The position numbers were made by a program, and so were the translations under genes. Source: Myxococcota bacterium (lineage in GTDB: Bacteria; Myxococcota_C; UBA6777). From it: a stretch of DNA of 64,000 nt. Within the stretch, counting starts at the first letter, position 1, and the number at the start of each line of letters is the position of its first letter. The stretch covers positions 62,001 through 126,000 of the forward strand of contig JAKLKB010000017.1 in assembly GCA_023150835.1 (NCBI GenBank). The letters are read 5' to 3'. The notes under the pieces are model-generated. The model did no database searches, was not told the DNA's origin, and worked only from the letters and a program-made list of their open reading frames with translations. This document shows, piece after piece, positions 34,746 to 35,802 of this stretch.

Positions 34746-34984
34746 TTGTGCTGTTCTTGCTTTGATCTGTTGCTTTCATGCAGTCGTTTCAAAAAAGAAA
34801 AAAGGCGACCGCTCCGCCCATCGCCACAAAGCTTGTGTGTGGATCGCGCTCCTTCGGGGGCGTCGTGCTTTGTCAAGGAAGTCGACACATCGTTGTCTCT
34901 TCTTTGCCAGCCGATCTCACCCGCTTCTCCCGCGACTTTCTTGGTGACCGAGAACTTTCTTCTGAAAAATGAACCCACCCAAAG

Positions 34985-35220
34985 GACGAGGCGTCTAGGC
35001 GCACCGAGGCTGCAAAAGCCAGCGGCGCATACACGCCTAACCATCGGTTCTATGCGTCCCGCGTATCGGCTGCGACTTCGTTATCCGGGTTCGAGTCCCG
35101 GGAACTCCACCATCGCCGTCTGTGGACGGTTTTGGGGTTCTGGCGGAATGGAAGACGCGCTTGATTTGGGATCAGGTAACACATCAAACTTTTTAACACA
35201 GCCACATACGGCACGCTGTG
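34985..35220 (+). ncRNA. structured RNA unit B around a permuted Leu-like tRNA
   Basis: Second unit, about 450 bp after unit A. Upstream elements are a hairpin GGCG-CATACA-CGCC followed by TAACCATCGGT, and the hairpin ATGCG-TCCCG-CGTAT (35052-35066). Downstream are GTAACACATCAAAC (35176-35189) and CACAGC-(12 nt)-GCTGTG (35197-35220) with ATACGG in the loop. Loop words match unit A while both stems differ yet still pair, which is covariation and argues for a conserved folded RNA rather than chance similarity. Confidence 0.6.
35068..35176 (+). tRNA. circularly permuted tRNA-Leu-like sequence (anticodon loop reads TGG)
   Basis: The 3' half comes first: T-arm CCGGG-TTCGAGT-CCCGG (35085-35101), acceptor strand GAACTCC (35102-35108), discriminator A, encoded CCA (35110-35112). 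A 21-nt linker follows, holding the hairpin CCGTC-TGTG-GACGG and TTTT. Then the 5' half: acceptor GGGGTTC (35134-35140), which pairs with GAACTCC at all 7 positions (one G:T); D-arm GCG...CGC with the Leu-type GGCGGAAT...GACGC; and anticodon arm CTTGA-TTTGGGA-TCAGG. The loop gives TGG (35167-35169), a proline anticodon on a leucine-type body. The linker hairpin plus T run could also be a terminator. Confidence 0.65.
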
Positions 35221-35524
35221 ACGGGTGATCGCGCAGAGGCGACAGCATCGGATTCTTCTCGATGTTTGGTCTTTTGTTGCAGGTTGCTCCGCTCCAGCCG
35301 TCTGTCTCGGGTTTTGTGAGTTGCGAACGCGCATCTTTGCGGTGGGTGATCTGGTTTGGAGAACGTTGTTGTTCAAACGCATCCATCGCGCAAGCGTGTG
35401 AAACTCGTGCTTTTGGGGTTCCCAAAGCACCAGCCGCCCTCCCACCCGAAAGGACGCCGCCCGTATCGTGGCTGTTTGCTTTGGCGGGCTGAGGGCCAAA
35501 GTCTTTTCGAGAAGAAAGTGCTTG

Positions 35525-35712
35525 TGTTGGTGGGAGGGGCGTGTTATGTGGCAGGCGTTGTGCCTAGCGAGCAAGGGAAGACGGTGTAAATCCGTCACGG
35601 ACCCGCCACTGTGAGCGGTCAGGCTTGTGCAAAAGGGCCACTGTCCTTGATGGATGGGAAGGCGCACAAGATAGCGGCTGCAAGTCAGGAGACCTGAGCG
35701 AGGCATCCTCAT
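35525..35712 (+). promoter_or_regulatory. cobalamin riboswitch
   Basis: Contains the conserved core of the adenosylcobalamin/cobalamin riboswitch: GGGAAGACGGTGTAAATCCG, then TCACGGACCCGCCACTGTGA, and the B12 box CAAGTCAGGAGACCTG (about 35680-35695). It lies about 90 bp before the TonB-receptor start, as usual for vitamin B12 uptake genes, and should switch expression off when cobalamin is plentiful. A hairpin GATCGTG-TTT-CATGATC (35745-35761) lies between it and the gene and may be part of the expression platform. Confidence 0.95.
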
Positions 35713-35802
35713 TTCATATCCTCGGGATCTGGGATAGTTGAGGGCGATCGTGTTTCATGATCGAACCCTGCGCTATTCCAACTGCAAGCGGCCCTTCGTC
35801 AG

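Follow-up and report, generated by a model that had tools for sequence, protein, structure and literature searches.

Unit B, a permuted tRNA-like locus in a Myxococcota genome, probably encodes a tRNA mimic that does not decode. As judged from their sequences, B and three further units (A, C and D) make up a small RNA family, structured and non-coding, whose members combine a permuted tRNA-like domain with a hairpin module on its 5′ side and another module on its 3′ side. The best explanation of the whole, given a probability of about 0.5, is that A–D are non-decoding permuted tRNA-like RNAs that probably act with a Ro60-like protein. If this is true, a second architecture for tRNA mimicry exists among Y-type RNAs, namely a near-complete tRNA shape that includes the anticodon arm, is opened at the variable region and is borne by a distinct structured module. 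Such mimicry would then exist in bacteria without a Pfam-recognisable Ro60, and the role of the large DUF2828 family would become testable through its RNAs. It would also be a warning that tRNA-shaped RNAs bearing an anticodon need not decode.

Anatomy of unit B

Units A and B lie on the + strand of the window, the whole stretch of 64,000 nucleotides analyzed here, whose coordinates are used for both. Unit B begins with its 5′ module (35017..35071), which scores 73.6 bits as a training row of the covariance model R2, has covariation and refolds alone. Its helices are P1 (AGCC/GGCU), GCGG/CCGC and a variable helix (CGCAUA/UAUGCG), while a loop with AUCGG and the bulges UC and GUAUC are unpaired. 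GUUA (35080..35083), which precedes the T-stem, is possibly a strand of a variable stem; AAC/GUU is retained in units A, B and D without covariation. The T-arm CCGGG-TTCGAGT-CCCGG follows (35085..35101, stem strands 35085-35089 and 35097-35101), then the acceptor 3′ strand GAACTCC (35102-35108) with A73 and an encoded CCA (35109-35112). None of the 51 ordinary host tRNAs counted encodes CCA. A linker of 21 nt (35113..35133) containing the hairpin CCGTC-TGTG-GACGG leads to the acceptor 5′ strand GGGGTTC (35134..35140). Downstream lie a Leu-type D-arm (35143..35158), an anticodon-type arm CTTGA-TTTGGGA-TCAGG (35160..35176) with UGG at 35167-35169, and a 3′ module of putative function, delimited by sequence and fold (35177..35220). 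The latter consists of UAACACAUCAAAC plus the hairpin CACAGC...GCUGUG (35197-35220) with AUACGG in its loop.

This permuted anatomy was proposed in a preliminary description of the locus, and its T-arm, acceptor strand with CCA, Leu-type D-arm and TTTGGGA loop can all be read directly. All seven acceptor pairs claimed to form across the permutation do so, as six Watson-Crick pairs and one G-U pair, and the segment 35102-35140 has a fold z of -3.2. ARAGORN calls no tRNA at units A or B. In Rfam, unit B gives a tmRNA_permuted match of 25.8 bits, below the cut-off of 47, and unit A a sub-threshold tRNA match. No complete outer tRNA halves surround units A and B; each has a 5′ module on one side and a 3′ module on the other. 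Inspection of the two sequences reveals no convincing variable arm where the halves are proposed to join.

Conservation of units A and C

Unit A comprises a 5′ module (34561..34614; R2 69.8 bits, a training row), a Tyr-type permuted core (34629..34703; 85.7 bits as a training row of the model R1) and a 3′ module (34704..34766). Its core has the loop CTGTAAA (GUA), six of seven acceptor pairs and a 7-nt linker. Unit C lies on contig 201 of the host genome (G000; 239 contigs, 93% complete) and contains two successive permuted tRNA-like cores. C1 is opened at the anticodon stem and is without a complete anticodon arm; C2 retains an anticodon hairpin. The linkers of A and C2 measure 4-7 nt, and CCA is absent from both.

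In a sister genome (G001), units A and C are almost unaltered. Unit A is identical at 210 of 219 bases (72 of 75 in the core and all 63 in the 3′ module) and unit C at 341 of 356, compared with 931 of 1070 and 786 of 901 for the genes upstream of A and C, respectively. The unit RNAs are thus about 96% conserved against 87% for neighboring genes, an identity beyond chance. An intergenic stretch adjacent to A is identical at only 37 of 78 positions, while the stretch directly 3′ of the unit retains 182 of 197, so the 3′ boundary of A is uncertain. The tRNA part of unit B is deleted in the sister genome (window positions 35076 to about 35446 are missing) and its 5′ module is retained; B is therefore known from a single genome.

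The 5′ module and its recurrence in another genus

A hairpin is common to A, B, C and their counterparts in the sister genome. It has an outer helix, a GCGG/CCGC helix and a variable helix starting with C-G, together with a loop of 16-19 nt containing AUC, a UC bulge and a five-base RYAUC bulge. Across the six sequences, 97.8% of cells are paired and 10 of 15 pairs show two-sided change, a test biased in favor of the structure because this was derived from the same sequences. None of 500 shuffles matches the percentage paired or the covariation score, and slid versions reach at most 55% paired.

Two covariance models without shared columns were used, R1 for the permuted core and R2 for the 5′ module. 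R1 gives seven matches of 61.7-85.7 bits in the host and sister genomes, six of which are its own training rows. It also scores 63.7 bits on one unrelated tandem tRNA pair and has matches in 232 of 290 genomes; 26 of the 28 matches examined outside unit A are two ordinary tRNAs side by side. R1 on its own is a poor detector, and its scores do not separate unit D from tandem tRNAs. R2, run on 193 genomes, recovers all six places on which it was trained and adds one new place, plus four matches that do not go beyond 22.4 bits. Seven of the 193 genomes have a match at E 0.01, and only three of them exceed 22.4 bits.

The new place is unit D (G003:C4:87168-87224, 42.6 bits, E 2.6e-10), in a genome of another genus. 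R1 also finds it (53.6 bits), about 25 bases from the R2 match, and ARAGORN calls no ordinary tRNA there. Unit D has the acceptor TCATTCT/GGAATGA, a 6-nt linker, a Leu-type D-arm and the loop CTTAAGA (UAA), and its GCGG/CCGC helix is compensated to GUGG/CCAC. It is an independent recurrence, recovered by two non-overlapping models. The search for the same order in related genomes, suggested at the outset, has accordingly yielded A and C in the sister genome and D in G003. The break in the tRNA-like domain falls within the variable region in A, B, D and C2, and a short loop closes the acceptor. The 3′ modules of the units gave no convincing alignment.

Unit B and decoding

The preliminary description offered two functions for unit B, a leucine tRNA reading CCA/CCG codons or an RNA that has the shape of a tRNA without decoding. 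The second fits best, because the anticodon drifts, ordinary tRNAs are present, the tRNA-splicing endonuclease EndA was not found and B is lost in the sister genome. The anticodon of unit A is GUA (CTGTAAA) in the host and CUA (CTCTAAA) in the sister genome, one of three changes in the core, and the Leu-type units B and D differ likewise (UGG and UAA). Ordinary host tRNAs include Tyr, several Leu, Pro (ggg, cgg, tgg) and Asn. EndA (PF01974) passes the cut-off in none of the five genomes of the family examined, with one sub-threshold match in G004. On the same grounds, with ordinary Leu and Pro tRNAs available, the reading of CCA/CCG as Leu is unsupported. The CUA of the sister genome's unit A (contig 167, L087) sits on a Tyr-type body and would read UAG if it decoded.

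A candidate protein partner with a predicted Ro60 fold

The likeliest protein partner is a DUF2828/DUF7788 protein encoded in these genomes, whose binding to the unit RNAs is putative. Pfam TROVE has no match in the five family genomes. A viral contig encodes a protein 57% identical to the DUF2828 protein of the host, and the structure predicted for this viral relative (pLDDT 82.8) resembles Ro60. In VIA, Ro60/TROVE structures occupy the first 10 rows (best Z 20.6, rmsd 4.0, 423 aligned), while the rows after them fall to about 10.9 with only the vWA part aligned. In Foldseek, the first 11 rows are Ro60/TROVE. A profile search against PDB sequences also ranks Ro60 first (E 5e-4). The relative of the DUF2828 protein is thus predicted to have a Ro60 fold.

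The DUF2828 gene is present in G000, G001 and G003 and absent from G002 and G004, and permuted units are counted in the same three genomes. This co-occurrence covers five genomes, two of one genus, and the count leaves out the best R1 match of G004 (51.0 bits). In these three of the five genomes, the DUF2828/DUF7788 gene also adjoins tRNA-like RNAs of normal order that bear an insert in or near the anticodon loop. The insert is roughly 40 nt long and has a conserved hairpin (UUGUACAA type) ending in CNCAGCA; several of these RNAs lie directly 3′ of the gene. They are found in G000 (L089 about 1860-2160, L091 about 2130-2260), G001 (L101, L098) and G003 (L109 about 1640-2390, L110 about 1290-1410). 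Splicing of the insert-bearing tRNAs of G000 was considered and dropped, as the inserts share one conserved hairpin with CNCAGCA and several are beside the DUF2828 gene. DUF2828 is also matched in part by much larger open frames, L180 in G000 (1235 aa) and L179 in G003 (1181 aa).

Units A–D are not adjacent to the DUF2828 gene (C is about 32 kb away on the same contig) and do not carry the (W)CAGCA motif of its RNA neighbors. With neither a shared motif nor adjacency, and with no 5′ module at viral loci, the Ro link for A–D consists of co-occurrence and likeness to the bacterial Y RNA YrlA. That the Ro-like protein is the partner of the unit RNAs is hence a tentative proposal, at slightly less than even odds. 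By analogy with bacterial Y RNA, the tRNA-shaped domain of a unit RNA would dock tRNA-handling enzymes or exonucleases and the remainder would bind the Ro60-fold protein. The resulting RNP may act in RNA quality control or repair rather than in decoding.

Relation to known RNAs

In bacterial Y RNAs, a T-arm, a loop-closed acceptor stem and a D-arm make up a circularly permuted tRNA-like domain (PMC8394870, PMC11472068). The units share this order with YrlA (RF02553), to which C1 and C2 give 35.8 and 32.0 bits, below the cut-off of 69; at the thresholds applied, A, B and D do not match it. A protein predicted to be of the Ro60-fold type (DUF2828) is likewise encoded in the unit-bearing genomes. 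In contrast to YrlA, units A, B and D and core C2 have their opening in the variable region and retain the anticodon hairpin; only C1 opens at the anticodon stem. YrlA also has no counterpart of the 5′ hairpin module, whereas the genomes of the units have no classical TROVE gene and A–D are not next to the Ro-like one. A strict Y RNA with a TROVE Ro60 was rejected, as a Pfam TROVE gene is absent. No Ro-binding stem formed from the RNA ends was recognized in A–D, whose 3′ modules align poorly.

Permuted tRNA genes of algae and archaea also place the 3′ half first and form acceptor pairs across the permutation (PMC3978253, PMC3218864). The units differ in that EndA is missing, their isoacceptors are redundant and the anticodon is not conserved. 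Permuted tmRNA (RF04321) has the same order of T-arm and acceptor, which unit B matches below the cut-off. Unlike it, B has an anticodon arm, and an unsystematic look noticed no tag reading frame. Among the publications covered, partially so for bacterial Y RNAs, none describes RNAs of DUF2828 proteins or permuted tRNA-like RNAs whose opening lies in the variable region, which is not proof of novelty.

RNAs at viral DUF2828 loci

Ro60-related proteins and suspected Y RNAs have been described in phages (PMC12282133, PMC7765460). Some jumbo phages are reported to encode a ROT/TROVE protein whose partner in cellular organisms is tRNA-like (PMC7824862). DUF2828 matches 663 phage records, and two permuted tRNA-like modules lie downstream of the viral gene with 57% identity. 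When 81 viral loci are scanned strictly for permuted modules with a tRNA-type T-loop and a D-arm, six have them on the same strand as the gene. One non-canonical match falls on the opposite strand. In a control set, not matched in base composition to the viral loci, 2 of 80 loci match, and a tRNA-type T-loop is missing from both. The scan takes linkers of at most 14 nt and would therefore miss unit B. Of 21 loci scanned in named records, four have clear modules, namely those of Mycobacterium phages Tourach and Douge, Escherichia phage pEP20 and a Bacillus plasmid. A full-length match to YrlA, at 50.3 bits against a cut-off of 69, comes from one viral module.

Like the units, the Y-like RNAs of Tourach, Douge, pEP20 and IMG/VR contigs have permuted tRNA-like modules, which lie on the strand of the gene. 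Unlike the units, they are enclosed by a stem bearing a motif of the ACAGCAA type, absent from A–D. The 5′ module of the A–D type is found at none of 80 viral DUF2828 loci. Matches to a loose pattern for it in 120 viral stretches were dismissed as chance, and the best R2 score at the 80 loci is 23.0 bits versus 69.8 and 73.6 for A and B. The phage layout runs from strand 1 through ACAGCAA and the permuted tRNA module to strand 2, and the insert-type layout is a tRNA in normal order with an inserted stem capped by a tetraloop at its far end. Judged by sequence, both layouts resemble a single design that has been circularly permuted. Insert-type RNAs also occur beside DUF2828 genes in Cronobacter phage S13 (L192 4356-4600), where they carry tRNA gene annotation, and in Vibrio phage BUCT194 (L189 2121-2236). 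In Leptolyngbya phage Lbo-JY46 (L182 4052-4445), a chain of stem RNAs lies downstream of the DUF2828 gene, with ACAGCAA on their 5′ side and UGAUAA between the stems.

Alternative explanations

The units might instead be genuine permuted tRNA genes, in which a precursor is cut on either side of the tRNA-like part, circularized by an RNA ligase and freed of its linker to yield Tyr-, Leu- and Asn-type tRNAs. Their acceptor pairs are correct, the D- and T-arms are good, the anticodon arms of A, B, C2 and D are intact, and CCA is encoded in B. An RNA ligase gene (PF09414, E 3.6e-32; L325 528-1514, − strand) furthermore lies head-to-head with unit D in G003. Two jumbo phages have RNA ligases ahead of their DUF2828 gene, and no relative of the enzyme is found in the host genome stretches examined. 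A ligase beside D fits an RNA-repair RNP, and the joining of tRNA halves equally. Such genes are nonetheless improbable given the ordinary Tyr, Leu, Pro and Asn tRNAs, the drifting anticodons, the incomplete C1, the short linkers without CCA in A and C2 and the failure of EndA to pass the cut-off in five genomes. A and B are also without a good variable arm, and the flanking modules are kept more than a discarded leader would require. A version in which the RNA ligase joins the halves into tRNAs with reassigned anticodons, a Leu body reading Pro codons and a Tyr body reading UAG in the sister genome, is less probable again.

A system other than Ro60 is a possible, if unlikely, home for the same tRNA-shaped RNAs, for example as anticodon-nuclease decoys or ligands of a protein that binds the 5′ module. 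It would suit anticodon arms that are intact yet drifting, and a 5′ module that is specific to this bacterial family and not seen at viral Ro-like loci. However, no candidate protein or nuclease is linked to it, and the Ro-like gene is common to the three genomes. A circularly permuted self-splicing intron of group I/II type, with the permuted halves as its exons and the flanking modules as intron halves, is very improbable. Structured and conserved modules do flank the reversed halves, but they are only about 55-75 nt long, and Rfam has no group I/II match (34400-35520, E up to 10; unit C, E up to 5). An intact outer half split by a known intron, which the preliminary description named as a refutation, is likewise not seen: there is neither a complete outer half nor an Rfam intron match. 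Decay of a tandem tRNA array, leaving an old 3′ half beside an old 5′ half, is scarcely credible. The 26 of 28 other R1 matches that are adjacent ordinary tRNAs show that arrays can give rise to the layout. This reading is contradicted by acceptor complementarity inside each unit, conservation of about 96%, covarying modules where the outer halves would be and recurrence in another genus. The early judgment that random decay is unlikely holds, the outer halves having been replaced by conserved structured modules.

Other features of the window and host genome

Close to unit B, a cobalamin riboswitch (35529-35717, 90.2 bits) lies upstream of a TonB-dependent receptor gene. The window also holds three tandem tRNA-Met genes with equal scores (26465-26868). 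Elsewhere in the host genome, locus L031 (contig 34, 13900-15700) is an array of about twelve tRNAs, among them tRNAs with Leu anticodons that are only 74-76 bases long, short for Leu.
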